In this document: positions 16,745 to 35,699 of the stretch, piece by piece
How positions within the stretch are numbered: the first letter of the stretch is position 1
How the letters are laid out: each line of letters begins with the position of its first letter
Assembly: GCF_019317285.1 (NCBI RefSeq)
Contig: NZ_CP079218.1
Location: 4,774,001-4,838,000 of the forward strand
Reading direction: 5' to 3'
Origin: Pedobacter sp. D749
GTDB lineage: Bacteria > Bacteroidota > Bacteroidia > Sphingobacteriales > Sphingobacteriaceae
Length of the DNA stretch: 64,000 nucleotides
Notes under the pieces: generated by a model
What the model saw: only the letters and a program-made list of their open reading frames with translations
The model's database searches: none
What the model was told of the DNA's origin: nothing
Translations under genes and position numbers: made by a program

Positions 16745-16849
16745 GCGGAATGGACGGGACTCGAACCCGCGACCTCCTGCGTGACAGGCAGGCATTCTAA
16801 CCAGCTGAACTACCACTCCTTTTGTTCTTCTTTAAAGTTCGAACCTCTT
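16745..16849. repeat. 105-bp direct repeat, copy 1 (tRNA-Asp and upstream region)
   Basis: Exactly the same 105 bases occur at 32550-32654, in the same orientation. The copy includes the whole tRNA and 30 nt of its upstream region. Confidence 0.95.
16746..16819 (-). tRNA. tRNA-Asp (GTC)
   Basis: A 74-nt cloverleaf on the minus strand: acceptor GGAGTGG / CCATTCC, D arm with AGCTGGTTAGA, anticodon loop CTGTCAC (anticodon GTC), T arm GCGGGTTCGAGTCCCGT, discriminator G. CCA is not encoded. It is identical to the tRNA at 32551-32624. Confidence 0.95.
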
Positions 16850-17423: not shown

Positions 17424-19382
17424 CTAATATTTTAAAATGGTAAATTCTGTTCTTCTATTTTGCTGATGTTCTGCTGTAGAACAGCTCACGCCATTTGAGC
17501 AGCGGTTAAGCAAACGTGTTTCGCCATAGCCTTTGGCAGTCATCCTACTTCTCGCGATACCCCGGCTTACCAGGTAATTGACTACAGATCTTGCTCTCCG
17601 TTGAGAAAGGTCCAAGTTGTAGATATCTACACCACGACTATCTGTATGAGAAGCAAGTTCAATTTCCAGGGTAGGGTTGTCCCTCATGGTGCGGACCAGT
17701 TCATTCAATATTTTTGCCGCATCAGCCCGGATATTGTCCTTGTCAAAGTCGTAATGAATATTCGCAAGTCTCAGTGTTTTACCCTCTTCAAACAACGGCT
17801 CTAAGCGCAATTCGGCATATAAAGTATCTGATTTTGTCAGCCCTTTTGTGGTTAACATTGCTGAGTCTGCGTAGAACTTTATTTTGGTTCCAAGCACTTT
17901 ATAGTCGCTTTCTTTATCAAGCTGAAAGAAGAAGGTACCATCCTGTTCATTGATTTTTTTTGCTACGATACCTGATCCGTCCTTCGACAGGGTAACTGTC
18001 ACATCAGAAAGGCGTTCCTGAGTTTTCTTGTTAAACGCTACCCCACGTAGCGCGAGAATAATTTTCGGACGGGAATAGTTGAACGTATAGATGTCGTCAG
18101 AACCCTGTCCACCTTTACGGTTAGATGCCAGATATCCGGTAATTCCATCGGGGGTTGGCCCGGTGGTAAAGAAAGCAAAGTCATCTGCAGCAGAGTTAAC
18201 AGGATACCTTAAATTTACTGCTTTCGTCCAGTTGGATTTATTACCCTTGCTGCTGAAAATATCCAGGCCGCCCATTCCGGGCAATCCGTCTGTAGAAAAG
18301 TATAGTGTACCAGTTTCACTTACCGAAGGAAACATTTCGTTGCCAGCAGTATTTACCGATGGCCCTACATTAATAGGTTTTCCCCAGGTACCGTCAGACT
18401 GCAGGTCGCTATACCAGATATCTGTTCCGCCCAATGTTCCGGGCATATCAGACACAAAATACAGCGTTTTTTCGTCGGAACTCAGACTTGCATGACCCAC
18501 GGAGTATTCTTTAGGTTTGTTATACGCAAAAGGCTGCACCTGGTAATTCCCCGTCTGCTTATTCTTAGTGTAAATATAAAGTTCGAGGTTACTTGTTTTA
18601 TATTTTCGTTTGCCAGCTTTACCCACTTCACCCTCGCTGCCCGTGTAAGTGCGGGTAACGTAAAAAACGTTTTGGGACTTGTCCGATACGAGCGGTCCCT
18701 GATGAAACGGAGCATCATTAAGGCCTGATTTTATCACCACAGGATTAGTGAGGTTATGCTCCATATCCGACATTGAGGCATAGATTTTAAGAAAGCTATT
18801 TCCCGTCCAGCCATAAGTTTTGTTCAATCCTTTGTTTTCCGGCTCTCCGGTAAAATACACAAGTTTTCCCACAGGGTAGGCTGAGAACTCCGAAAGCGGT
18901 GTGTTTACCCCCGTTTCATTTCTAATCTGGTAGGAGAGCGGATTTGCCATCCAGGTAATGGCAGAGTCGCAACCTGCAAGTTGCAAGGCCACCTGAGGCG
19001 TAAGGCCGATCTTAGTGGCATAGTCAGCAAACACCTTTTTTGCCTCTGCGTATTTAAGATTTGCTTTCAGCATTTCGCCATAATAGAGTAGGTTGATGGC
19101 CGAACTTTCAGGCATAGCGATAACGCGCGAGTACCAGGTTTCCGCAGCCTCAAAGTCGTTCATATTGCGGTAACACAGTGCGAGATTTTCAAGGTCTTTA
19201 AGTCGCGGATTATCCTTGTCCACCAGTTTTTGGATTAGGGTGGCAGCGTTTGCATAGCTATATTGATTTAAAAGCATCTGAGCCCTTTCACGGACCCCGG
19301 GTTGTTCTTGAGCATTTGCCGATCCGAGCAGGATTGAGAGGACAACAACGACTAAACTAAATTTCCTATAATGGTTGTTCAT
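17424..19382 (-). CDS. OmpA-family outer-membrane protein with TPR and WD40-like (PD40) domains
   Basis: 652 residues with a signal peptide (1-24). In order: TPR-like helices (about 30-135), a beta-propeller of PD40 repeats (about 190-420; YFVSDMPGTLGGTDIWYS and YFSTDGLPGMGGLDIFSS are blades), a carboxypeptidase-regulatory/CNA-like beta domain (about 440-520), and a C-terminal OmpA domain (about 535-650) with ASHTDSRG and NRRTEF, which binds peptidoglycan. Such proteins accompany PorP/SprF and giant adhesins in Bacteroidota and resemble the periplasmic type IX protein PorE. It is the last gene of the adhesin operon and starts 1 nt after the stop of a 45-codon ORF. Confidence 0.88.
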   Translation of the reverse strand: MNNHYRKFSLVVVVLSILLGSANAQEQPGVRERAQMLLNQYSYANAATLIQKLVDKDNPRLKDLENLALCYRNMNDFEAAETWYSRVIAMPESSAINLLYYGEMLKANLKYAEAKKVFADYATKIGLTPQVALQLAGCDSAITWMANPLSYQIRNETGVNTPLSEFSAYPVGKLVYFTGEPENKGLNKTYGWTGNSFLKIYASMSDMEHNLTNPVVIKSGLNDAPFHQGPLVSDKSQNVFYVTRTYTGSEGEVGKAGKRKYKTSNLELYIYTKNKQTGNYQVQPFAYNKPKEYSVGHASLSSDEKTLYFVSDMPGTLGGTDIWYSDLQSDGTWGKPINVGPSVNTAGNEMFPSVSETGTLYFSTDGLPGMGGLDIFSSKGNKSNWTKAVNLRYPVNSAADDFAFFTTGPTPDGITGYLASNRKGGQGSDDIYTFNYSRPKIILALRGVAFNKKTQERLSDVTVTLSKDGSGIVAKKINEQDGTFFFQLDKESDYKVLGTKIKFYADSAMLTTKGLTKSDTLYAELRLEPLFEEGKTLRLANIHYDFDKDNIRADAAKILNELVRTMRDNPTLEIELASHTDSRGVDIYNLDLSQRRARSVVNYLVSRGIARSRMTAKGYGETRLLNRCSNGVSCSTAEHQQNRRTEFTILKY

Positions 19383-19522: not shown

Positions 19523-20536
19523 TTAAAAAAATCTTGGACTCAGTAAACGAATATCCTTCCGTGGGAAGGTCATACCGAGGGTGATCTCGTGCGTACCGTT
19601 TGAGATGCTTCCGAGCCTACTCAGCGCATAATCGTAAGAATAGCCGATGCGAAAACGTTTGTCCACATAAAATTGGGCGATGCCTGAAATTGCGTTCAAT
19701 TGACTAAGATCCTGTCCATCAGTATATTTTTTCTTCCAGGTTTTTACACCCGTGCGGTATGCCCCACCGAACCATACTTTGCCACCGAAGATGACCATTG
19801 CGCCTACATCTAAACTGGTTGGCCCTTTAAAATCCTCTTTAATCATAATACTCGGGCGCAGTTTAGTATCTTCATTCAGATCGACCAACATGCCCGTAAT
19901 CAAATACATATGACGCTGGCGCCTGATATTTTCATTACTACCATCACTCCAACGGAAGATTGCATTGTCGTAGGATTTAGAAAATAGATCCATTACAGAC
20001 GCGCCAATATAAAATTTAGGACTCGAGTAGTACACTCCAAACCTGGCATCAGGAATGATATTGCTGATTTTACCAACCGGCAGCGATTGATCACCACCAT
20101 CTACCGGGTTAAGCATGCTTCCATCTAAGCCATATTGTGTGAGGCCGACACCAACACCAAAACTTAATCTTCTTGTGTCCTCATCATTTAACCGGATTCG
20201 GTACGCATAATTGACATAAGCAGAATTTGCCGATTGCGGACCGAGCTTATCAGCCGTAATCTGTAAGCCCAGGCCCATTCTTTTCGTATACGGATCCAGA
20301 ACCCCATCGATAGAAATCTGCCCGGTCCTCGGAGCACCTTGAATCCCTGTCCATTGGCTTCTGAGGGCCATCTGGGCAAACCATTCCTCCTTATAACCGG
20401 CATAAGCAGGGTTTACGCTCAATGAATTGAAAATATATTGTGTAAACTGGATGTTCTGCTGCGCAAGAACCGGAGTAGTTCCACAACATAGCAAAGCTGC
20501 TACCAGTATTAATTTATTTATGCCTTTTATCTTCAT
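19523..20536 (-). CDS. PorP/SprF family outer-membrane protein
   Basis: 337 residues with a signal peptide ending AQQ at about 26. The start of the mature protein has the family signature: QNIQFTQYIFNSLSVNPAYAGYKEEW (residues 27-52), in particular NPAYAG. The rest alternates short beta strands with turns, as in a small barrel (TRRLSFGVGVGLTQYG, ...YYSSPKFYIGASVMDLFS). Family members work with type B CTD cargo of the type IX secretion system; SprF is needed for SprB output in Flavobacterium. It follows the adhesin gene by 35 nt and so is its likely dedicated partner. Confidence 0.92.
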   Translation of the reverse strand: MKIKGINKLILVAALLCCGTTPVLAQQNIQFTQYIFNSLSVNPAYAGYKEEWFAQMALRSQWTGIQGAPRTGQISIDGVLDPYTKRMGLGLQITADKLGPQSANSAYVNYAYRIRLNDEDTRRLSFGVGVGLTQYGLDGSMLNPVDGGDQSLPVGKISNIIPDARFGVYYSSPKFYIGASVMDLFSKSYDNAIFRWSDGSNENIRRQRHMYLITGMLVDLNEDTKLRPSIMIKEDFKGPTSLDVGAMVIFGGKVWFGGAYRTGVKTWKKKYTDGQDLSQLNAISGIAQFYVDKRFRIGYSYDYALSRLGSISNGTHEITLGMTFPRKDIRLLSPRFF

Positions 20537-20571: not shown

Positions 20572-23500
20572 TTATTTTTTAATTAAAACCCAACCTTTTT
20601 TAATCTGCTTATCGTTGCCGTTTCTCAGCGTGATCATGTAGTAATAGGTGCCTGCGTTTAGGCCCTGACCGTCCCATGTGTTTTTGTAGTTGCTGTTACG
20701 GTATACTTCATTACCCCATCTGTTAAAGATTGCTATTTCTACCTGTTGGTAGTTTTCGATACCTACGATTACGAACAGATCATTCTTTCCATCACCATTA
20801 GGCGTAAACACATTAGGTATAAAGAAGCCCGTTACATCGATAGTCGCGATAGCCACATTGGTCCAGTTTCCATTCTCGTCTTTTACGCGGTAAGTAAACT
20901 GATCTTTCCCGGTGTAGCCGCTATATGGCGTATAGATTACAGTTCCGTCAACATTAACTACCAGTGTTCCATGCGCCGGAGACGAGATAACTTCAACCGT
21001 CGATCTGTCGAATGGAGATCCGTCGATCCTGTCGTTGGTAAGTACAGGAATTGATACCGGCTTATTGTATTCCGTTTCTGCATGATCATCAATTGCGATC
21101 GGTTTAGAAGGAATCACCGTAATTGTTACCGTTGCAGTGTTAGAAACCTGACCGTTTTCATCGGTGACGGTATATGTAAAAGTATCCGTTCCGGTATATC
21201 CGTTATCAGGTGTATAATTTACTGTACCATCTGTATTCACCTTAACCGTACCATGAGCAGGATTGGTAATCACAGTTGTACTTGCAGGCACTAAAGGCTT
21301 GCTTCCAGGAAGATCATTAGTTTGAACATTGACGGTTACCGGTTTATTTTGCTGCGTTTTACCAGCGTCATCTTTCGCTACAGGCGGCTTAGCTAAAGGT
21401 GTTTCCGTAGCCGTATCATTGTCGGTATCTGTACCCGATGTGTCTTTCACATCGTTGCCTTTAGGATCTTTGGCCGTTGCCACTGCTGTGTTTGTTACCT
21501 TTCCGTTATCAATATCTGCAGCTGTAATTTTATAAGTTTCCTTATGAGTTACCGTGGCACCTGGTGCAAGTGCTCCAGGGATCACTTTTGTACCAGCAAA
21601 GATCAAAGGATCATTAAGAACAATATTGCTCAATGTTGTGTTTCCTGTATTAGTGATCGTGAAGGTGTATTCGATGTTGTTGTTTAACACGAAAGCACCC
21701 TGTACACCAGTTCCCACGTTAGTTACCTTTTTAACAAGTACCAAAGCACCAGTTTGTGGAAGTGGTGTAACCGTGCAATCCGGACAGGCAGGATCAACAG
21801 GAGGCGTACCAGGACCTGAAGGGTTACCGCTTTCAGACTGATCGGTAACGTTGTTTCCTTTAGGATCTTTACCCGTTGCTGTTGCAATGTTGTAAACAGC
21901 ACCTTTATCAATATCCGCTTGTGTTACCGTGTAAGAAGCAGTAAATGTAGTTAAGTCGGCAGCACCAGGAAGTAAAGTTACCGGACCACCGGTTACTGTT
22001 ACTTTAGGGTCAGTAATAACGATGTCACTTACCGTTACGTTACCAGTATTTTCAACTTTGAAGGTATAGCTGATCTTGTCGCCAAGGTTTACTTTACCGT
22101 CACCGTTGGTATCTGCATAAGTTCCGGTTTTAGTTAATTTAATGACCGGGGTTTGTGGAAGTGGAGTAACCGTGCAATCCGGACAGGCAGGATCAACAGG
22201 AGGCGTACCAGGACCTGAAGGATTACCACTTTCAGACTGATCGGTAACATTGTTTCCTTTAGGATCTTTACCAGTTGCTGTTGCAATGTTGTACACAGCA
22301 CCTTTATCAATATCGGCCTGTGTTACAGTATAAGAAGCAGTGAATGTATTTAAGTCGGCAGCACCAGGAAGTAATGTTACCGGTCCGCCAGTTACGGTTA
22401 CTTTAGGGTCAGTAATAACGATGTCACTCATCGTTACGTTACCAGTATTTTCAACTTTGAAAGTATAGCTGATCTTGTCGCCAAGGTTTACTTTACCGTC
22501 GCCATTGGTATCTGCATACGTTCCGGTTTTAGTTAATTTAATAACCGGGCTTTGTGGAAGTGGAGTAACCGTGCAATCCGGACAGGCAGGATCAACAGGA
22601 GGCGTACCAGGACCTGAAGGATTACCACTTTCAGATTGATCGGTAACATTGTTTCCTTTAGGATCTTTACCTGTTGCTGTTGCAATGTTGTAAACAGCGC
22701 CTTTATCAATATCGGCCTGTGTTACCGTATAAGAAGCAGTGAAGCTTGACAGGTCTGCTGCACCAGGAAGTAAAGTTACCGGGCCACCAGTTACGGTTAC
22801 TTTAGGGTCAGTAATAACGATGTCACTCACTGTTACGTTTCCAGTGTTTTCAACTTTGAAAGTATAGCTGATCTTGTCGCCAAGGTTTACTTTACCATCG
22901 CCATTGGTATCTGCGTAAGTTCCGGTTTTAGTTAATTTAATAACAGGAGTTTGTGGAAGTGGGGTAATCGTACAATCCGGACAGGCAGGATCAACAGGAG
23001 GCGTACCAGGACCTGAAGGGTTACCACTTTCAGATTGATCGGTAACATTGTTTCCTTTAGGATCTTTACCCGTTGCTGTTGCAATGTTGTACACAGCACC
23101 TTTATCAATATCGGCCTGTGTTACCGTATAAGAAGCAGTGAAGCTTGACAGGTCGGCTGCACCAGGAAGTAAAGTTACCGGGCCACCAGTTACGGTTACT
23201 TTAGGGTCAGTAATAACGATGTCACTCACTGTTACGTTTCCAGTGTTTTCAACTTTGAAAGTATAGCTGATCTTGTCGCCAAGGTTTACTTTACCATCGC
23301 CATTGGTATCTGCGTAAGTTCCGGTTTTAGTTAATTTAATAACCGGGCTTTGTGGAAGTGGTGTGATTGTACAATCCGGACAGGCAGGATCAACAGGAGG
23401 CGTACCAGGACCTGAAGGGTTACCACTTTCAGACTGATCGGTAACGTTGTTGCCTTTAGGATCTTTACCAGTTGCTGTTGCAATGTTGTAAACAGCACCT

Positions 23501-26500
23501 TTATCAATATCGGCCTGTGTTACCGTATAAGAAGCAGTAAATGTATTTAAGTCTGCTGCGCCAGGAAGTAATGTTACCGGTCCGCCAGTTACGGTTACTT
23601 TAGGGTCAGTAATAACGATGTCACTCACCGTTACGTTTCCAGTGTTTTCAACTTTGAAAGTATAGCTGATCTTGTCGCCAAGGTTTACTTTACCATCGCC
23701 ATTGGTATCTGCGTAAGTTCCGGTTTTAGTTAATTTAATAACCGGGCTTTGTGGAAGTGGTGTGATTGTACAATCCGGACAGGCAGGATCAACAGGAGGC
23801 GTACCAGGACCTGAAGGGTTACCACTTTCAGACTGATCGGTAACGTTGTTGCCTTTAGGATCTTTACCAGTTGCTGTTGCAATGTTGTACACAGCACCTT
23901 TATCAATATCGGCCTGTGTTACAGTATAAGAAGCAGTGAATGTATTTAAGTCGGCAGCACCAGGAAGTAATGTTACCGGTCCGCCAGTTACGGTTACTTT
24001 AGGGTCAGTAATAACGATGTCACTCATCGTTACGTTACCAGTATTTTCAACTTTGAAAGTATAGCTGATCTTGTCGCCAAGGTTTACTTTACCGTCGCCA
24101 TTGGTATCTGCATACGTTCCGGTTTTAGTTAATTTAATAACCGGGCTTTGTGGAAGTGGAGTAACCGTGCAATCCGGACAGGCAGGATCAACAGGAGGCG
24201 TACCAGGACCTGAAGGATTACCACTTTCAGATTGATCGGTAACATTGTTTCCTTTAGGATCTTTACCTGTTGCTGTTGCAATGTTGTAAACAGCGCCTTT
24301 ATCAATATCGGCCTGTGTTACCGTATAAGAAGCAGTGAAGCTTGACAGGTCTGCTGCACCAGGAAGTAAAGTTACCGGGCCACCAGTTACGGTTACTTTA
24401 GGGTCAGTAATAACGATGTCACTCACTGTTACGTTTCCAGTGTTTTCAACTTTGAAAGTATAGCTGATCTTGTCGCCAAGGTTTACTTTACCATCGCCAT
24501 TGGTATCTGCGTAAGTTCCGGTTTTAGTTAATTTAATAACCGGAGTTTGTGGAAGTGGAGTAACCGTGCAATCCGGACAGGCAGGATCAACAGGAGGTGT
24601 ACCAGGACCTGAAGGGTTACCACTTTCAGAATGATCGGTAACGTTGTTGCCTTTAGGATCTTTACCCGTTGCTGTTGCAATGTTGTAAACAGCACCTTTA
24701 TCAATATCCGCTTGTGTTACCGTGTAAGAAGCAGTAAATGTAGTTAAGTCGGCAGCACCAGGAAGTAAAGTTACCGGACCACCGGTTACTGTTACTTTAG
24801 GGTCAGTAATAACGATGTCACTTACCGTTACGTTACCAGTATTTTCAACTTTGAAGGTATAGCTGATCTTGTCGCCAAGGTTTACTTTACCGTCACCGTT
24901 GGTATCTGCATAAGTTCCGGTTTTAGTTAATTTAATGACCGGGGTTTGTGGAAGTGGAGTAACCGTGCAATCCGGACAGGCAGGATCAACAGGAGGCGTA
25001 CCAGGACCTGAAGGATTACCACTTTCAGACTGATCGGTAACATTGTTTCCTTTAGGATCTTTACCAGTTGCTGTTGCAATGTTGTACACAGCACCTTTAT
25101 CAATATCGGCCTGTGTTACAGTATAAGAAGCAGTGAATGTATTTAAGTCGGCAGCACCAGGAAGTAATGTTACCGGTCCGCCAGTTACGGTTACTTTAGG
25201 GTCAGTAATAACGATGTCACTCATCGTTACGTTACCAGTATTTTCAACTTTGAAAGTATAGCTGATCTTGTCGCCAAGGTTTACTTTACCGTCGCCATTG
25301 GTATCTGCATACGTTCCGGTTTTAGTTAATTTAATAACCGGGCTTTGTGGAAGTGGAGTAACCGTGCAATCCGGACAGGCAGGATCAACAGGAGGCGTAC
25401 CAGGACCTGAAGGATTACCACTTTCAGATTGATCGGTAACATTGTTTCCTTTAGGATCTTTACCTGTTGCTGTTGCAATGTTGTAAACAGCGCCTTTATC
25501 AATATCGGCCTGTGTTACCGTATAAGAAGCAGTGAAGCTTGACAGGTCTGCTGCACCAGGAAGTAAAGTTACCGGGCCACCAGTTACGGTTACTTTAGGG
25601 TCAGTAATAACGATGTCACTCACTGTTACGTTTCCAGTGTTTTCAACTTTGAAAGTATAGCTGATCTTGTCGCCAAGGTTTACTTTACCATCGCCATTGG
25701 TATCTGCGTAAGTTCCGGTTTTAGTTAATTTAATAACAGGAGTTTGTGGAAGTGGGGTAATCGTACAATCCGGACAGGCAGGATCAACAGGAGGCGTACC
25801 AGGACCTGAAGGGTTACCACTTTCAGATTGATCGGTAACATTGTTTCCTTTAGGATCTTTACCCGTTGCTGTTGCAATGTTGTACACAGCACCTTTATCA
25901 ATATCGGCCTGTGTTACCGTATAAGAAGCAGTGAAGCTTGACAGGTCGGCTGCACCAGGAAGTAAAGTTACCGGGCCACCAGTTACGGTTACTTTAGGGT
26001 CAGTAATAACGATGTCACTCACTGTTACGTTTCCAGTGTTTTCAACTTTGAAAGTATAGCTGATCTTGTCGCCAAGGTTTACTTTACCATCGCCATTGGT
26101 ATCTGCGTAAGTTCCGGTTTTAGTTAATTTAATAACCGGGCTTTGTGGAAGTGGTGTGATTGTACAATCCGGACAGGCAGGATCAACAGGAGGCGTACCA
26201 GGACCTGAAGGGTTACCACTTTCAGACTGATCGGTAACGTTGTTGCCTTTAGGATCTTTACCAGTTGCTGTTGCAATGTTGTACACAGCACCTTTATCAA
26301 TATCGGCCTGTGTTACAGTATAAGAAGCAGTGAATGTATTTAAGTCGGCAGCACCAGGAAGTAATGTTACCGGTCCGCCAGTTACGGTTACTTTAGGGTC
26401 AGTAATAACGATGTCACTCATCGTTACGTTACCAGTATTTTCAACTTTGAAAGTATAGCTGATCTTGTCGCCAAGGTTTACTTTACCGTCGCCATTGGTA

Positions 26501-29500
26501 TCTGCATACGTTCCGGTTTTAGTTAATTTAATAACCGGAGTTTGTGGAAGTGGTGTGATTGTGCAATCCGGACAGGCAGGATCAACAGGAGGCGTACCAG
26601 GACCTGAAGGGTTACCGCTTTCAGACTGATCGGTAACATTGTTTCCTTTAGGATCTTTACCCGTTGCTGTTGCAATGTTGTAAACAGCACCTTTATCAAT
26701 ATCGGCCTGTGTTACAGTATAAGAAGCAGTAAATGTATTTAAGTCTGCTGCGCCAGGAAGTAAAGTTACCGGTCCACCGGTTACGGTTACTTTAGGGTCA
26801 GTAATAACGATATCACTTACCGTTACGTTACCCGTATTTTCAACTTTGAAAGTATAGCTGATCTTGTCGCCAAGGTTTACTTTACCGTCGCCATTGGTAT
26901 CTGCATACGTTCCGGTTTTAGTTAATTTAATAACCGGAGTTTGTGGAAGTGGTGTAATTGTACAATCCGGACAGGCAGGATCAACAGGAGGCGTACCCGG
27001 ACCTGAAGGGTTACCACTTTCAGACTGATCGGTAACGTTGTTTCCTTTAGGATCTTTACCCGTTGCTGTTGCAATGTTGTAAACTGCACCTTTATCAATA
27101 TCGGCCTGTGTTACCGTATAAGAAGCAGTAAATGTAGTTAAGTCTGCTGCACCAGGAAGTAAAGTTACCGGACCACCGGTTACGGTTACTTTGGGGTCAG
27201 TAATAACGATATCGCTGACCGTTACGTTACCAGTATTTTCAACTTTGAAAGTATAGCTGATCTTGTCGCCAAGGTTTACTTTACCATCGCCATTGGTATC
27301 TGCGTAAGTTCCGGTTTTAGTTAATTTAATAACCGGGGTTTGTGTGATGATCGTTTCAGTAGGCGTATCATTTAAAGCAGTAGATCCCGAAATATCACTT
27401 ACAGGTGTATTGATTGGATCCTTAGCAGTAACAGTAGCCTGGTTTGTTACCTTACCAGCATCAACATTAGCCTGAGTAACCGTATATGTACCTGAGTAAG
27501 TCCATACTTCGCTAACACTAAGCAACTGATCGTTACCAGTATCGCCCGTAGGGCCAGTTAAGGTAACAAAAGGCAGACTTTCAGCTAAAGCGACCGTGTT
27601 CAATATTACATCCCCTTCGTTTTTGACTTTAAAGCTGTAATTAATCACATCACCAAGTTTGAAAGTGCCACCAGCACCGCTACCCGTATTCGTTATCGAT
27701 TTAACTAAAGATATTTTCGGATTGGTACCAATGGTGATCGTTACCGTAATCGGGTCAGAATCTACCAGATCGCCCGTAGTAAGTTTGTAGGTGTATGTAT
27801 CCGTACCGATATAACCATTTGTTGGCGTATAGGTAATTGTTCCATCACCATTAACCACAACAGAACCGTGCGTTGGATTAGCCACTTTACTAACAGTGGT
27901 ACCCGATGCACTGACACCATCGTTAGATTTTACAACTGTTGTAACCGGAGTGTTCAATGCAGTTAAACTAGCATCATCAACACCAACCGGTTTAATGCGG
28001 ACAGTAATTGTACCCTGATTACTTACAACACCTGCATTGTCTTTTACCGTGTATTTAACCGGCGTTGCAATACCGATAAAGGCAGGCTCAGGGTTAAAGG
28101 TAACTTGTCCAGTTGCCGGATCAACGGTATAAACACCCTGGTTGGCTACCGTAAGACTGGTACTATAGGTATTTGTTGTTGGGTTAAATAGTAAAACTGT
28201 TGTTTTATTGATTGTTGCGTTACCGTTTGGATCCGTATCGTTTGCAAGAACGTCAATAATCAAGTCAGTGTCTATAGTAGTAGATACTCCATCGTTTACA
28301 GCAACCGGAACCTGATCAACGGCAAAGTTTACCGCTGTTACATCCATGCTTAAACCAGGTATCACTACTGTAACCCGCATGTCAGGCACACCAGTTTCAA
28401 ACCCCGTCTGACTGTTGTTAACTCCAAACGCATCACCTACAGCATTCCAGCCAGTGGGTATTGTTGGCGGGATATTAGCTATTGTATTGGTTCCGTTTAC
28501 CGGCACATTAACAGTAGAAATAGCCACACTATACGTCCCCTTATTCAGGTTGGCAAATTGATAGCTGCCATCAGCGGCAACAGGCGTTTTAGCAATAATT
28601 TTATTCGTGTTATCTAATAAGTAAGCGTATAGTGGAGATCCGCCGAGCGTGTTGATTCCTGTTCCGGAGATTTGATTATCACTCAGGCCGTTTCCGTCGT
28701 TAATCACATTTCCAGAAATTGACGGACCAATAATATCTTTCAGCTTGTAATCTTCTGTTTCACCATCGGCAGCGAACGACGTACTTCGCTCATCTACCGG
28801 CGTAGCAGGATCATCAATTAGAGTACTTGTTGTTATTCTGATCCGTGCATAGAGCGGCCCGGTTTTGATGTCATTAATAAAAGACGCATTAGGATAAGTA
28901 AGCGTTACTGTATAATTGGAAGCATTGGCCGGAACAGTAACACTGATCATTTCATTGGGAGAAAAAATACCATCCCCATCAAAGTCGACCCACCCACGTA
29001 CCACAGCAGGTACGTTTTTAGTATTAGTAACCGGAAATCTAATGACATAATCCCCAGCCTGATTCACCTTAACGTCGGCTAATGCCGAAGCATCAATCGT
29101 GTTTTCATCATTATTCTGCGTATTGTTATCTGCATTAGCCAGGGGCCCATGAGCACCCAGACCATCCGCATCTACATTTGGCGAACCGATATACACTGTA
29201 GCCTCAGGCGTTAATGGTGTAGTAGGGTAATTAACAGTGGCATAATCGCCGTCACCAGGAAAATAATCGGTGATCAAAAATTTATCAATATAATGGCCAA
29301 CTTTATCACCATAAGAAATCGGGGCATCCCCAAGATCAAAAGGCAAGACAAAACCGATAGCCATGGCGGTAATACCAGAACCTTTCATCTCTACATCCAG
29401 CAGGTTGCTTGCATTGTGGGCAAACATAACTGCCTGGATACCAAAATTGCCTGGCGTAAGGTTAGCAGAAAGTTTAAATTTCTTACCTGCATTAGAGAGC

Positions 29501-30132
29501 AACATTCTATAGTGGTCATCATTAGCGTTACCATTGGTACGCTTGTTTAGCAGCTGCCAGGCAATAGAAGAAGGCGATGTTCCCTGGATATATTCACCAC
29601 CAGCATCAATAGATTCAGCATCGCCGATCACCATACCTGGGTAAGTAATATTTGTCCAGACCCCGTTCATCAAGATATCAACTTTTACGTCGATATCGAA
29701 CTTGATTGTTGCGCCGGTTGTGGTAGCAAGACCCGAATTTACCACACCTCTGGAATTGGGCTTAGTAAGTCCGTTTCCAGAATAGATCAGGTCGAGCCCA
29801 TCACCGGAATATTGACCAGGCGTATAGGCTACCATATTTCCGCCAGCATTAGTAGTGCGGTTAGAAATGATGGCCGTAATGCGGACTGTTGGGGAGAACA
29901 TCCAGCGGTACGTACCATTTACCACATTGTTACTGTTAAAAGCAGCTGGCTTTTCAGTCAGGGTAGCATTATCCCAGGTAAGCCAGTATACAGCTTTGGT
30001 AAGATCGCCAGCTGTTCCGCCAATGGCATATTGTGCCCTGGCGTTGTTTACGAAAAAAGTTAGAGCAACGAGCAATCCAATTGCGTACCGAAATCGTAAG
30101 TTTCGTTTTAAATAAAGTAAAAATTTTTCCAT
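20572..30132 (-). CDS. Giant type IX-secreted adhesin with 14 tandem DUF7507-like repeats
   Basis: 3186 residues. Signal peptide about 1-33 (ending NNARAQ); an N-terminal lectin-like/GEVED region (about 40-470, DGETEDYKLKD); a carboxypeptidase-regulatory domain; Ig/CshA-like modules (IDVLANDTDPNG; YTPTNGYIGTDTYTY); one diverged DUF11/DUF7507 unit; then 14 units of 133 residues (932-2793), each with a DTNGDGKVNLGD Ca2+-loop motif and a CPDC pair; another diverged unit and two more Ig-like modules; and a gliding-motility-type C-terminal domain (about 3100-3186, IPNVFTPNGDGKNDLF to the final KGWVLIKK). The last is a type B CTD used by the type IX system. It is probably a long surface fibre for attachment or gliding, as for SprB-class proteins. 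Repeat number may vary. Confidence 0.93.
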   Translation of the reverse strand: MEKFLLYLKRNLRFRYAIGLLVALTFFVNNARAQYAIGGTAGDLTKAVYWLTWDNATLTEKPAAFNSNNVVNGTYRWMFSPTVRITAIISNRTTNAGGNMVAYTPGQYSGDGLDLIYSGNGLTKPNSRGVVNSGLATTTGATIKFDIDVKVDILMNGVWTNITYPGMVIGDAESIDAGGEYIQGTSPSSIAWQLLNKRTNGNANDDHYRMLLSNAGKKFKLSANLTPGNFGIQAVMFAHNASNLLDVEMKGSGITAMAIGFVLPFDLGDAPISYGDKVGHYIDKFLITDYFPGDGDYATVNYPTTPLTPEATVYIGSPNVDADGLGAHGPLANADNNTQNNDENTIDASALADVKVNQAGDYVIRFPVTNTKNVPAVVRGWVDFDGDGIFSPNEMISVTVPANASNYTVTLTYPNASFINDIKTGPLYARIRITTSTLIDDPATPVDERSTSFAADGETEDYKLKDIIGPSISGNVINDGNGLSDNQISGTGINTLGGSPLYAYLLDNTNKIIAKTPVAADGSYQFANLNKGTYSVAISTVNVPVNGTNTIANIPPTIPTGWNAVGDAFGVNNSQTGFETGVPDMRVTVVIPGLSMDVTAVNFAVDQVPVAVNDGVSTTIDTDLIIDVLANDTDPNGNATINKTTVLLFNPTTNTYSTSLTVANQGVYTVDPATGQVTFNPEPAFIGIATPVKYTVKDNAGVVSNQGTITVRIKPVGVDDASLTALNTPVTTVVKSNDGVSASGTTVSKVANPTHGSVVVNGDGTITYTPTNGYIGTDTYTYKLTTGDLVDSDPITVTITIGTNPKISLVKSITNTGSGAGGTFKLGDVINYSFKVKNEGDVILNTVALAESLPFVTLTGPTGDTGNDQLLSVSEVWTYSGTYTVTQANVDAGKVTNQATVTAKDPINTPVSDISGSTALNDTPTETIITQTPVIKLTKTGTYADTNGDGKVNLGDKISYTFKVENTGNVTVSDIVITDPKVTVTGGPVTLLPGAADLTTFTASYTVTQADIDKGAVYNIATATGKDPKGNNVTDQSESGNPSGPGTPPVDPACPDCTITPLPQTPVIKLTKTGTYADTNGDGKVNLGDKISYTFKVENTGNVTVSDIVITDPKVTVTGGPVTLLPGAADLNTFTASYTVTQADIDKGAVYNIATATGKDPKGNNVTDQSESGNPSGPGTPPVDPACPDCTITPLPQTPVIKLTKTGTYADTNGDGKVNLGDKISYTFKVENTGNVTMSDIVITDPKVTVTGGPVTLLPGAADLNTFTASYTVTQADIDKGAVYNIATATGKDPKGNNVTDQSESGNPSGPGTPPVDPACPDCTITPLPQSPVIKLTKTGTYADTNGDGKVNLGDKISYTFKVENTGNVTVSDIVITDPKVTVTGGPVTLLPGAADLSSFTASYTVTQADIDKGAVYNIATATGKDPKGNNVTDQSESGNPSGPGTPPVDPACPDCTITPLPQTPVIKLTKTGTYADTNGDGKVNLGDKISYTFKVENTGNVTVSDIVITDPKVTVTGGPVTLLPGAADLSSFTASYTVTQADIDKGAVYNIATATGKDPKGNNVTDQSESGNPSGPGTPPVDPACPDCTVTPLPQSPVIKLTKTGTYADTNGDGKVNLGDKISYTFKVENTGNVTMSDIVITDPKVTVTGGPVTLLPGAADLNTFTASYTVTQADIDKGAVYNIATATGKDPKGNNVTDQSESGNPSGPGTPPVDPACPDCTVTPLPQTPVIKLTKTGTYADTNGDGKVNLGDKISYTFKVENTGNVTVSDIVITDPKVTVTGGPVTLLPGAADLTTFTASYTVTQADIDKGAVYNIATATGKDPKGNNVTDHSESGNPSGPGTPPVDPACPDCTVTPLPQTPVIKLTKTGTYADTNGDGKVNLGDKISYTFKVENTGNVTVSDIVITDPKVTVTGGPVTLLPGAADLSSFTASYTVTQADIDKGAVYNIATATGKDPKGNNVTDQSESGNPSGPGTPPVDPACPDCTVTPLPQSPVIKLTKTGTYADTNGDGKVNLGDKISYTFKVENTGNVTMSDIVITDPKVTVTGGPVTLLPGAADLNTFTASYTVTQADIDKGAVYNIATATGKDPKGNNVTDQSESGNPSGPGTPPVDPACPDCTITPLPQSPVIKLTKTGTYADTNGDGKVNLGDKISYTFKVENTGNVTVSDIVITDPKVTVTGGPVTLLPGAADLNTFTASYTVTQADIDKGAVYNIATATGKDPKGNNVTDQSESGNPSGPGTPPVDPACPDCTITPLPQSPVIKLTKTGTYADTNGDGKVNLGDKISYTFKVENTGNVTVSDIVITDPKVTVTGGPVTLLPGAADLSSFTASYTVTQADIDKGAVYNIATATGKDPKGNNVTDQSESGNPSGPGTPPVDPACPDCTITPLPQTPVIKLTKTGTYADTNGDGKVNLGDKISYTFKVENTGNVTVSDIVITDPKVTVTGGPVTLLPGAADLSSFTASYTVTQADIDKGAVYNIATATGKDPKGNNVTDQSESGNPSGPGTPPVDPACPDCTVTPLPQSPVIKLTKTGTYADTNGDGKVNLGDKISYTFKVENTGNVTMSDIVITDPKVTVTGGPVTLLPGAADLNTFTASYTVTQADIDKGAVYNIATATGKDPKGNNVTDQSESGNPSGPGTPPVDPACPDCTVTPLPQTPVIKLTKTGTYADTNGDGKVNLGDKISYTFKVENTGNVTVSDIVITDPKVTVTGGPVTLLPGAADLTTFTASYTVTQADIDKGAVYNIATATGKDPKGNNVTDQSESGNPSGPGTPPVDPACPDCTVTPLPQTGALVLVKKVTNVGTGVQGAFVLNNNIEYTFTITNTGNTTLSNIVLNDPLIFAGTKVIPGALAPGATVTHKETYKITAADIDNGKVTNTAVATAKDPKGNDVKDTSGTDTDNDTATETPLAKPPVAKDDAGKTQQNKPVTVNVQTNDLPGSKPLVPASTTVITNPAHGTVKVNTDGTVNYTPDNGYTGTDTFTYTVTDENGQVSNTATVTITVIPSKPIAIDDHAETEYNKPVSIPVLTNDRIDGSPFDRSTVEVISSPAHGTLVVNVDGTVIYTPYSGYTGKDQFTYRVKDENGNWTNVAIATIDVTGFFIPNVFTPNGDGKNDLFVIVGIENYQQVEIAIFNRWGNEVYRNSNYKNTWDGQGLNAGTYYYMITLRNGNDKQIKKGWVLIKK
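21754..27339 (-). repeat. Array of 14 tandem 399-bp in-frame repeats in the adhesin gene
   Basis: Fourteen copies, each exactly 399 bp (133 codons), with no length change. Copies differ by a few codons (VSD/MSD, TTF/NTF/SSF, CTIT/CTVT). Units 4-7 and 11-14 show the same variant order. Two stretches, 21857-23490 and 24650-26283, are identical over 1634 bp at an offset of 2793 bp (seven units). Short-read assemblies could have collapsed or expanded it. Confidence 0.97.
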
Positions 30133-30211: not shown

Positions 30212-30252
30212 GATCATCCATATGGGCAGGCGTACTTCCCACATGGATGATC
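30212..30252. promoter_or_regulatory. 15-bp inverted repeat between the araC-like gene and the adhesin gene
   Basis: Arms GATCATCCATATGGG and CCCACATGGATGATC (one mismatch) surround an 11-nt loop. It begins at the stop codon of the upstream regulator and ends 79 nt before the adhesin ATG. No T run follows on the minus strand. It could be an operator, an attenuator, or an RNA stabiliser. Confidence 0.6.
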
Positions 30253-31373
30253 TATGTTGATGTGACCTCTTGCAGGTACTCTGAAGGCGTGAGGCCAACT
30301 ATCAATTTGAAGTTTCTATTAAACGAAATCTTTGAATTAAAGCCACTTGCGAGAGCAAGTTGTTCTATAGTTAGCTTGCTCCCGGATTTATTATCGAGCA
30401 TATGGCAAGCATATGCTATGCGGTGCTTGTTAACGAAGCTGGTAAAATTGGTCTGCAGCTGCAAATTGAATGTTTGCGTAAGGTGGTGGGCTGGAATTTT
30501 AAGTTGGAGTGCAAGATTTTCCAGGGAAAGAGACGGATCAAGGTAAGGTTTTTGCGCATCCATCAGATCATTAAGTCTGGAAGTATATTCCTGCAGCTGG
30601 AGATCCGATAATTTCGACTTGGCATATAAAGGGGTTGCGTCTTTATCAAGAGCATCCTCTAAAGGTCGCTCGCCATCAGCGCGGTGAATCTTAAGGAACA
30701 TATTTTTCAGATAACCGAGAATCAGGACTGTGATAATCAGCATGAACGTATAAATAGTTGTTCGAAACACATAGCTGCTTTGTGCGGCAGTACCATGTTT
30801 AGCTATGGAGATGCTTACAGCAATAAAGAACATACTGACAAACAGCATCATAATTCCGCCCACTAATATGATATTACGTTTCCGCTTCATGTGCAGGATT
30901 GCATTGCTTCCGTTACTAAAGATGCCCGTAAAGGTGTAGCCTAAAAGAGAGCATACCGAGCACAATGCACTTATTCGCATCACTGGCTTGAAAATATGGG
31001 GATCCTTATACCAACCGTAGATTGCCGAATGGATAAAGATAACGAAGAAGATTGCGAATGGGGTTAAATGAATCAATACCCTACCCGTAGAAATCGTCTT
31101 TCCTTTCATTGCCCGAAGCGCAAAGTAAAGAAAAGGACCGTAGACAAATATGAAAGGCATCATCCTATCCAACCACCGCTCGTGTATGTAGAAATTCTCC
31201 AGATAAAAGACATAAAATGCATGGAAAAACACAAATATGGAAAATGCGTTGATGACTTTTCCAAACAAATCTTTTTTGTTGTATTCAAATCCGATATAGA
31301 TGTTTATCGCACTAACAGTTCCTGTCAACAATAGCAGGTAGGGAATCAGTGGGAATATTGCCGGTTCATTCAT
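30252..31373 (-). CDS. Membrane-bound AraC-family transcriptional regulator
   Basis: 373 residues. Six to seven transmembrane helices (about 1-225) are followed by a linker and a C-terminal AraC helix-turn-helix domain (about 270-370): LSLENLALQLKIPAHHLTQTFN, then IEQLALASGFNSKISFNRNFKLIVGLTPSEYLQ, the standard second-HTH signature. Such Bacteroidota proteins sense through the membrane part and bind DNA through the tail. It starts 5 nt after the stop of the upstream paralogue and precedes the adhesin operon in the same direction, so it may control that operon. The signal is unknown. Confidence 0.85.
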   Translation of the reverse strand: MNEPAIFPLIPYLLLLTGTVSAINIYIGFEYNKKDLFGKVINAFSIFVFFHAFYVFYLENFYIHERWLDRMMPFIFVYGPFLYFALRAMKGKTISTGRVLIHLTPFAIFFVIFIHSAIYGWYKDPHIFKPVMRISALCSVCSLLGYTFTGIFSNGSNAILHMKRKRNIILVGGIMMLFVSMFFIAVSISIAKHGTAAQSSYVFRTTIYTFMLIITVLILGYLKNMFLKIHRADGERPLEDALDKDATPLYAKSKLSDLQLQEYTSRLNDLMDAQKPYLDPSLSLENLALQLKIPAHHLTQTFNLQLQTNFTSFVNKHRIAYACHMLDNKSGSKLTIEQLALASGFNSKISFNRNFKLIVGLTPSEYLQEVTST

Positions 31374-31378
31374 AGGTG

Positions 31379-32383
31379 CTAAGGGGTACGCTGAGGATCT
31401 AAGTAAGTTCGCTGGTATTCTTGTGGTGTTAAATTAGTGATTTGCTTAAAATATTTATTGAAAGACGTTTTTGAGTTGAAACCGCATTCATAAGCTAAAG
31501 ATTCAATGGTAAGCATGCCGTTGCTGGATTTCATTTGTTCAATAGCATAGCTGATTCTATACTGAGCTACGAACTTATAAAATGTGAGCTTCATGTGCAC
31601 CGTAAATATTTGAGAGAGCAGGTGTTTTGGGATGTCTAATGTTTTAGAAAGAAGCTCCAATGACAGGTCGGATTTGAGATAAATATTTGTGTTGTCAAAG
31701 CAGTCGGTGATCATTTTTCTGTAGCGCTCTGCCATCTCAGTACTCAACTGCGAATTAGCATACATAGGTGTTACGGCGTCTTCCAGCTTCGCTGGAAGCG
31801 CTTTTGGCGCATTCGCCAGGTATCGAAAAACCAGGAAACTCATGCTCAATAACAGAAAATAACTAAAGAAACGGTAGTCAATCCGCATGTCAATTTTAAA
31901 TACGTTCCAGCATAAATACATCAGGATCATTAGTGTGGCAATGATGATATATATGGCAGCGCACATGACCAGCAGGTCGGCAGCAAGTGTATTTTTTGCC
32001 GAGTACAGTTTATTGAGTGTCAGGCAGCTGTATGTTATTAGTGATATAGAGATCACCAAATAGGAATTTTGGTAAAGCGCAAATGAGCTACTGGCCCATG
32101 TATAATGAAAGATTGTGGTAAACCATACATATGCATAGAGAACCGTGGTAAGCGCCGCCGGTATTAAATGTAAGCCATCTTTACTGGTCGTTCGGGGCCC
32201 AGATAGAGATCGTAAAGCAAGATGGAGCAGTGGTCCAAACAACATCCATGCGGGGTTCCATAAACGCTCATTAAACTTTATTTCATTTGTGATCCATTGA
32301 AATTTGTAAAAGACAACATAAATTCCAAGGCAAGCTGAGAGCAAAATTAATTTGTTGAAGGTATCGGCTAGCTTTAAAAGCAT
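31379..32383 (-). CDS. Second membrane-bound AraC-family regulator, tandem paralogue
   Basis: 334 residues with the same design as the downstream gene: six to seven hydrophobic helices (about 5-200), a short linker with the shared motif TPMYANSQLSTEM (TPLYAKSKLSDLQ in the neighbour), and an AraC HTH domain ending in ESLAYECGFNSKTSFNKYFKQITNLTPQEYQ. The two arose by duplication but have diverged strongly in the sensor part, so they may respond to different signals. First gene of this unit; tRNA-Asp and its terminator lie upstream. Confidence 0.85.
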   Translation of the reverse strand: MLLKLADTFNKLILLSACLGIYVVFYKFQWITNEIKFNERLWNPAWMLFGPLLHLALRSLSGPRTTSKDGLHLIPAALTTVLYAYVWFTTIFHYTWASSSFALYQNSYLVISISLITYSCLTLNKLYSAKNTLAADLLVMCAAIYIIIATLMILMYLCWNVFKIDMRIDYRFFSYFLLLSMSFLVFRYLANAPKALPAKLEDAVTPMYANSQLSTEMAERYRKMITDCFDNTNIYLKSDLSLELLSKTLDIPKHLLSQIFTVHMKLTFYKFVAQYRISYAIEQMKSSNGMLTIESLAYECGFNSKTSFNKYFKQITNLTPQEYQRTYLDPQRTP

Positions 32384-32549: not shown

Positions 32550-32654
32550 GCGGAATGGACGGGACTCGAACCCGCGACCTCCTGCGTGACAGGCAGGCAT
32601 TCTAACCAGCTGAACTACCACTCCTTTTGTTCTTCTTTAAAGTTCGAACCTCTT
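32550..32654. repeat. 105-bp direct repeat, copy 2
   Basis: Exact copy of 16745-16849; the offset is 15,805 bp. Beyond the exact core, weak similarity continues for about 30 nt (TTTCG...TGCAAATATA...ACTATAT) into the tRNA promoter region. Confidence 0.95.
32551..32624 (-). tRNA. tRNA-Asp (GTC), second copy
   Basis: Identical in all 74 positions to the tRNA at 16746-16819, with anticodon GTC in the loop CTGTCAC. Same orientation. Confidence 0.95.
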
Positions 32655-33801: not shown

Positions 33802-34486
33802 ATTTATTCTTGTTGAAATTTCCTGACGGCGGGTATAGGCCCAAAAATTCAGGAAATGCAAAAATAAGGAAAAAAGCTGAATTAGTTTGTTTAGGATTAT
33901 AGGTTAATTGGTTAACTTTTTGAACTGGTTAATCGCTTGGACGTAATGCGAGATAAAATAAAACAATATGTTGTCCGTTAGTCAAAAATTCTAAAAAGTT
34001 GATTTAAGGTTTTGGAAATGAGCAGTTCCTCTCCTATGGCAGCCGGTAGCCCCGCTATCACTCCAAGTCCTCGCTGCGCTGTGGGCTTTCCGTTTTATCG
34101 GGTTTAGGAACACAGGGAGGGTGCAGTTAGGCCCAATGCGACCCTCAATAGTAGCATGAACCTGCGTAACTAAACGGGATTGTAGTGGCAGCTCCCGATT
34201 TTCCTTCAAAATCGGGACTATAACGGAAAGCCCGACGAACATTAAGAAAAGTTACATACACTGCTTTCCAAAAAAACAGACTATATAGTTGGAATAATAG
34301 TTTTAGGCTGAGAAAAGTGCTATTTAAAGGTTTTGGAAATGGGCAGTTCCTCACTTATGGCGGCCAGTAGCCCCGCTATCACTTCAAGTCCTCGCTGCGC
34401 TGTGGGCTTCCCGTTTTATCGGGTTTAGGAACAGAGGGCGGCACAGCTAGGCGATGTGCAACCCAAATAGCTAAACGGCTCAAAAA
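33802..34486. repeat. Gene-free spacer with two direct copies of a ~138-bp repeat
   Basis: Copies at 34006-34144 and 34327-34464 (offset 321 bp) share long stretches such as TAGCCCCGCTATCACT, GTCCTCGCTGCGCTGTGGGC and CCGTTTTATCGGGTTTAGGA, with scattered changes. Each holds a small CCCGATAAAACGGG hairpin on the minus strand. Translations across it are not protein-like. It resembles dispersed intergenic repeats of Bacteroidota genomes. Confidence 0.8.
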
Positions 34487-35236: not shown

Positions 35237-35699
35237 GGATTTTTCAAAGGTAAGGCAAAAAGCTTAAAAAGACTAAAGAGGGGAAGACCACACAAAGACT
35301 AAAGCTTAAAGGCCAAAGAATAAAATAATGAGCCAAACTCAGTGTAAATCTGTGTTTCCGTGGCAAAAAACTTAATGCCCTTAATTTCTCAATGGTAAAA
35401 ACCCTAAGGTAAAGGCTGAAAAACCAGTACAAAGACTAAAACTTAAAATATCTTAATCTGTGCAATCAACCCGAAGGTAAAAAAGCTGAAAGACTAAGGC
35501 GAAAGAATAAAATAACGAGCTAAACTCCGTGTAAATCTGTGTTTCCGTGGCAAAAAACTTAATACCCTTAATTTCTCAATGGTAAAAACCCGAAGGTAAA
35601 GGCTGAAAAACCAGTATAAAGACTAAAATTTAAAATACCTTAATCAGTGTAATCAAGCCGAAGGTAAAAACATATATTAGTAAATAAATCTGTTTCACT
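35237..35699. repeat. Spacer with a two-copy 187-bp tandem repeat
   Basis: Copies occupy about 35296-35482 and 35483-35669 with an exact period of 187 bp; shared words include GTGTAAATCTGTGTTTCCGT and CTTAATTTCTCAATGGTAAA. A few substitutions separate them. The repeat runs up to 30 nt before the peptidase start codon, so it may include that gene's leader. No protein-like ORF. Confidence 0.8.

Follow-up and report, generated by a model that had tools for sequence, protein, structure and literature searches.

When an adhesin carries near-identical domains in tandem, these are usually taken as a device for changing the length of the protein, and the locus described here raises the question whether such domains can be rewritten by recombination while their number stays the same. 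The window, a stretch of 64,000 bp (positions 4,774,001 to 4,838,000 of contig NZ_CP079218.1) from the single-contig, complete 5.84-Mb chromosome of the soil bacterium Pedobacter sp. D749, carries on the minus strand a gene for a protein of 3186 aa (20572-30132), identified from its open reading frame and from Pfam and NCBIfam scans as a giant type B substrate of the type IX secretion system (T9SS). The gene contains an array of 14 repeat units which, to judge from the sequences, is reshuffled fast, and the number of units is equal in the two species in which it can be counted. The locus represents a natural counter-test of the usual view: two species with equal unit number and no indel in 9.5 kb, and no unit-by-unit correspondence between them.

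The array (21754-27339, minus strand), as delimited by repeat analysis and a structure model, is composed of 14 in-frame units of 399 bp with a constant spacing of 133 codons and no indels, from unit 1 (26941-27339) to unit 14 (21754-22152). Tandem Repeats Finder reported a period of 399, 14.0 copies, 94% matches and 0% indels. Each unit comprises one immunoglobulin-like (Ig-like) DUF7507 domain and a linker with a CPDC motif, and any two of the 133-aa units differ by at most five amino acids. Diverged cap domains border the array on the same strand, a DUF7507 domain before unit 1 (approximately 27340-27720, about 41% identical to the units) and a DUF7507/DUF11 domain after unit 14 (approximately 21385-21753, about 43% identical). 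In a structure model of three units, each unit formed one beta-sandwich (predicted local distance difference test, pLDDT, mostly 75-92), and the linkers holding the CPDC motif were of low confidence. A PDB sequence search with a single unit gave no real match, and fold searches returned mostly generic Ig-like matches, extender repeats of large adhesins among them. Dockerin and EF-hand matches were obtained on the DTNGDGKVNLGD segment of each unit; such matches are prone to artefact on a 14-fold repeat and are the sole hint of calcium binding by this segment, which is not claimed here.

Within the array, the segments 21857-23490 (units 10.65-14.74) and 24650-26283 (units 3.65-7.74), both read on the minus strand, are identical over 1634 bp. 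The two copies are offset by seven units, and mismatches at 21856 and 23491 delimit the block; beside it, copies at the same offset are about 5% different. The units vary at 55 columns. When the letters of the columns were shuffled among the units, the longest exact match reached at most 171 bp (60 shuffles), and shuffling the order of the units gave at most 941 bp, so that chance falls far short of the 1634 bp. Duplication of seven units in tandem as a single event is ruled out, because the match between units 1-3 and units 8-10 that it requires is lacking (28 differing bases in the pair 1/8, 19 in 2/9 and 14 in 3/10).

Shorter exact tracts were found as well, and the offsets represented in the array are 1, 3, 4, 6 and 7 units. 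A 689-bp tract in units 8.02-9.74 (23852-24540, minus strand) recurs three units away (offset 1197) in units 5.02-6.74 (25049-25737) and four units away (offset 1596) in units 12.02-13.74 (22256-22944). A 515-bp tract in units 9.01-10.30 (23630-24144, minus strand) equals units 3.01-4.30 (26024-26538) at an offset of six units (2394 bp), which is unlike that of the main block. Inside unit 10, a stretch matching neither source separates the 515-bp tract from the 1634-bp tract. An initial annotation of the window, made by reading the letters alone, had described the 14 units without indels and the 1634-bp identity ending at single-base mismatches, and both were reproduced to the base; its further match of "about 690 bp" at four units is the 689-bp tract.

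The two copies of the block show no difference over approximately 405 synonymous sites, which corresponds to an upper bound of about 0.007 for the synonymous divergence (dS). Since the flank of the gene has a dS of 0.078 to its ortholog in Pedobacter alluvionis, the copies are younger than roughly a tenth of the divergence from that species. The identity had initially been ascribed to a very recent block duplication or ongoing gene conversion. The recency is borne out, but not a duplicated block of seven units, as the tract covers only about 4.1 units. Incompatible site pairs amounted to 314 of 946 in the window array and to 1021 of 1653 in that of P. terrae, and the supported interpretation is one of recent recombination in the array. 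The mean nonsynonymous divergence (dN) within the window array is 0.012 and the dS is 0.23; a conserved protein with differing silent sites is what purifying selection would leave.

For comparison, the tip of the adhesin was searched across 145 Pedobacter genomes, with matches of 95-100% identity in four and only distant ones (28-35%) in twelve. The named close relatives with an ortholog are P. alluvionis DSM 19624, Pedobacter sp. PF22-3 and P. terrae DSM 17933, the comparison comprising one genome per species. Draft assemblies break within such arrays, as in two of the four Pedobacter orthologs here, which calls for caution: the contigs of P. alluvionis and PF22-3 end within the array, and units can therefore be counted only in the window species and in P. 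terrae.

The P. terrae gene has the same length as the window gene (9561 bp) and likewise consists of 14 units of 399 bp without an indel. The flanks of the two arrays are 93% and 91% identical. Positional orthology of the units is lost: units at the same position differ at a mean of 43.2 bases versus 42.6 in random pairing (permutation P = 0.74), and no circular shift of the units restores a clear match. Between the two species, the flanks have a dS of 0.25-0.32 and the units one of 0.48. Against P. alluvionis, the dS is 0.078 in the N-terminal unique flank and 0.19-0.34 in the readable units at the same position, a 3- to 4-fold higher divergence for the units. At the edges orthology has left a weak trace, the last unit of P. 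alluvionis being nearest to unit 14 and the unit at the start of the PF22-3 array to unit 1, which is the pattern that internal recombination in an array would give. The initial annotation had considered the repeat number likely to vary between strains and cells. This expectation is not supported, and the single comparison at hand speaks against it, P. terrae having 14 units and equal gene length despite full reshuffling of the units.

No fixed differences were found between the window and P. terrae arrays. The two have 40 variable third positions in common versus 26 expected (P = 2e-7), the excess over expectation being tested because at near-saturated third positions recurrent mutation could give some sharing. 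At the same place in both arrays there are also multi-base variants, CTxTCxAGC and TTAAATACA among them. These data point to an old pool of variants that is being reshuffled, and recurrent mutation may account for part of it. The absence of fixed differences and the many shared polymorphisms exclude that concerted evolution has gone to completion, with one unit type for each species.

Free unequal crossing-over should alter the unit number, and it was simulated under neutrality. When run to the loss of positional orthology, two lineages were equal in count in 4-9% of the runs; the simulation is crude and only two arrays are countable, so the result is suggestive rather than decisive. Fast reshuffling at an equal count would be explained better by gene conversion that is neutral in length, or by length selection, than by free unequal crossing-over. 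Conversion and length selection both yield equal counts and are inseparable from these data. With a length of about 4.1 units and a seven-unit offset, the main block would fit a conversion tract, and the patchwork in unit 10 would be explained more easily by conversion tracts than by one crossing-over.

The protein carrying the array is read without interruption of the frame through all 3186 aa. A signal peptide was recognized by eye at the N-terminus, followed by a CshA_NR2-like tip (aa 47-262, 127.6 bits) and a GEVED domain (aa 378-464, Pfam/NCBIfam). The same scans gave CshA-type and Big_9 domains and 16 DUF7507 domains, with a Big_9 domain between the DUF7507 series and the CHU_C type B sorting domain. 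The latter occupies aa 3105-3184 (TIGR04131 aa 3105-3185) and scores 97.7 bits for PF13585 (cut-off 27) and 57.9 bits for TIGR04131 (cut-off 35). The host genome encodes the SprA translocon (TIGR04189 over cut-off) and has six CHU_C matches over the cut-off. The earlier designation as a giant T9SS adhesin-type protein is in agreement with the sorting domain, the adjoining PorP/SprF gene and the presence of SprA. The array probably forms the stalk of a fibrillar adhesin secreted as a T9SS type B substrate.

Directly downstream of the adhesin lies a gene for a shuttle or anchor of the PorP/SprF family (19523-20536, minus strand; TIGR03519 251.5 bits, cut-off 90.55). The only cysteines of this protein are residues 17-18, and its C-terminal tail is without Cys-X-Cys. 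The next gene (17424-19382, minus strand) encodes a PorE/CHU_0125-like protein with an OmpA peptidoglycan-binding domain (66.4 bits); its best NCBIfam matches, CHU_0125_OmpA with 415 bits (cut-off 620) and PorE with 366 bits (cut-off 600), extend over nearly the full length and stay below the equivalog cut-offs. Upstream of the adhesin, two AraC-type regulators are encoded (30252-31373 and 31379-32383, minus strand). Both have membrane regions; they are present upstream in all four Pedobacter species and were not found in the Mucilaginibacter loci. As far as the contigs reach, the row of five genes is kept in all four Pedobacter species with an ortholog, and the row of adhesin, PorP and OmpA protein is kept in Mucilaginibacter.

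Related proteins bear other stalks. In Mucilaginibacter species the tip is about 60% identical, and the orthologs of 1381, 1216 and 2152 aa have few or about 12 Big_9 domains and no 399-bp array, two of them carrying two DUF7507 domains. Because these orthologs differ in this way, the stalk is a module exchangeable over long times. An ortholog in a metagenome-assembled Mucilaginibacter genome (L047:12206-15735) has approximately 13.6 copies of a 258-bp repeat, a Big_9 stalk, instead of the DUF7507 array. In a further Pedobacter genome (L082), a giant type B gene with a similar C-terminal end contains an array of 11 DUF7507 units of 396 bp, which vary more among themselves (17-85 differences per 396 bases); the upstream end of the gene is off the contig.

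We propose that the adhesin is exported through SprA, as gene order and published work would suggest, and is collected by the PorP/SprF-like shuttle encoded directly downstream. On the same grounds, the PorE-like OmpA protein would most likely hold it statically on the cell wall. The 14 Ig-like beads would form a chain that keeps the CshA_NR2/GEVED tip off the cell surface. The units would swap sequence by homologous recombination between near-identical DNA, frequently enough for sister species to lose the positional orthology of their units; the 1634-bp block would be the newest tract. We infer that the swapping is mostly length-neutral, that is gene conversion, or that selection removes length changes, either of which would leave the count at 14, and that purifying selection keeps the units functionally equivalent. 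For this reading as a whole, a statically anchored T9SS type B adhesin stalk with units reshuffled by mostly length-neutral exchange, we estimate a probability of roughly 0.68. More tentatively, selection or a strong conversion bias might fix 14 units while recombination rewrites them faster than species diverge and maintains a pool of synonymous variants that predates the separation of the species. If so, the stalk would be a periscope in reverse, with its sequence shuffled and its length fixed.

The near-identity of the units agrees with the published signature of Periscope Proteins, namely tandem repeats of more than 50 residues with at least 80% identity (PMC8201768), and related stalks differ in length, from the 11 units of L082 to the Mucilaginibacter orthologs of 1216-2152 aa. 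The adhesin might thus be a true periscope protein in which unequal crossing-over freely alters the unit number between strains, 14 in both species being coincidental or transient. We regard this as unlikely, since P. terrae has 14 units despite complete reshuffling, equal counts arose in only 4-9% of the simulated neutral pairs, and the copied tract, offset by seven units, spans about 4.1 of them, with too little match among the other units between the copies for a seven-unit duplication. That the 1634-bp block was made by mis-assembly or over-polishing of repeats is very unlikely. Such an array is hard to assemble, as the two related draft genomes breaking within it illustrate, but the window derives from a single-contig genome, falsely inserted units would equal the P. 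terrae count only by chance, and the block is edged by ordinary diverged sequence in a frame intact over 3186 aa.

A giant protein with a type B C-terminal domain (CTD) followed by a PorP/SprF gene resembles sprB-sprF (PMC12618676), and the adhesin might accordingly glide over the cell like SprB, with the SprF-like partner carrying it. This is highly improbable in our view. The Cys-X-Cys tail of SprF is required for gliding (PMC12635249), whereas the PorP/SprF-like protein of the window lacks cysteines in its C-terminal tail, and a PorE-like gene is next in the row, as in the static adhesin operons of PMC12618676. In Flavobacterium johnsoniae, type B substrates require a cognate PorP/SprF shuttle, and operons of a type B substrate, a SprF-like shuttle and a PorE-like gene were proposed to serve static anchoring (PMC12618676). 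Because of the cysteine-free tail and these PorE-linked cassettes, a static, cell-wall-anchored fibrillar adhesin appears more likely than a gliding one.

Several points weigh against the proposed statically anchored, length-neutrally reshuffled stalk. The equal counts come from two species, the P. terrae genome being a draft, and may be coincidental, with a chance of about 4-9% in the neutral simulation. Serial duplications and deletions could also yield a patchwork of tracts, and over longer times stalk length does change, as L082 with 11 units and the differing Mucilaginibacter stalks demonstrate. The case for static anchoring is one of analogy with F. johnsoniae, and the structure prediction of the tip (pLDDT only 39) is unusable.

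The anatomy of the adhesin is known in kind, being that of a periscope-like fibrillar adhesin. With the Periscope Proteins (Sgo_0707, SasG, Rib, CdrA, CshA; Whelan et al. 2021, PMC8201768) it shares near-identical folded tandem domains, which would carry a putative N-terminal adhesive-type domain, the location at the surface and a DNA identity sufficient for intragenic recombination. Those proteins are defined by length variation between strains, whereas the number is equal (14) in the only comparable species here; T9SS secretion and probably PorP/PorE anchoring, instead of a Gram-positive cell-wall anchor, are further differences. The gene row is similar to the Fjoh_3952-3951-3950 cassette of F. 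johnsoniae, which also combines a type B CTD substrate, a PorP/SprF-like shuttle and a PorE-like OmpA protein and whose complex is proposed to be static and cell-wall-anchored (PMC12618676); the likeness is drawn from gene order and families. Unlike for the window adhesin, no homogenised 14-unit array is mentioned in the passages of that paper considered here. As in the SprB-SprF gliding system (PMC12635249), a giant type B adhesin is followed by a partner of the PorP/SprF family, but in the window this partner is without a tail of the Cys-X-Cys kind, and the gene row includes a PorE-like gene. Tandem Ig-like extenders are further known from large RTX and ice-binding adhesins (PDB 6xi3, 6xi1, 5irb). 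The alignment of 6xi3 (259 residues, Z 8.3, rmsd 7.1) has a Z within the range of generic matches; the fold is common, whereas sequence identity is low and the secretion system is different.

What deserves further attention is that fast reshuffling goes together with a conserved number. A literature search yielded no paper on the number of repeats in T9SS adhesins of Pedobacter. If further isolates confirm a fixed number of 14, homogenising conversion would be separable from copy-number change, two processes usually lumped together, and selection on stalk length itself would be implied.

A few further elements were observed in the window. Two tRNA genes (16746-16819 and 32551-32624, minus strand) with equal Rfam scores flank the adhesin region and are possibly duplicates. 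A Flavo-1 sRNA match is located at 34168-34241 (RF01705, 49.9 bits, gathering threshold 42). Finally, a 187-bp intergenic repeat at 35309-35670 is present in 1.9 copies (93%); full-length copies occur nowhere else in the genome, and fragments of 24-59 bp are dispersed elsewhere in it.

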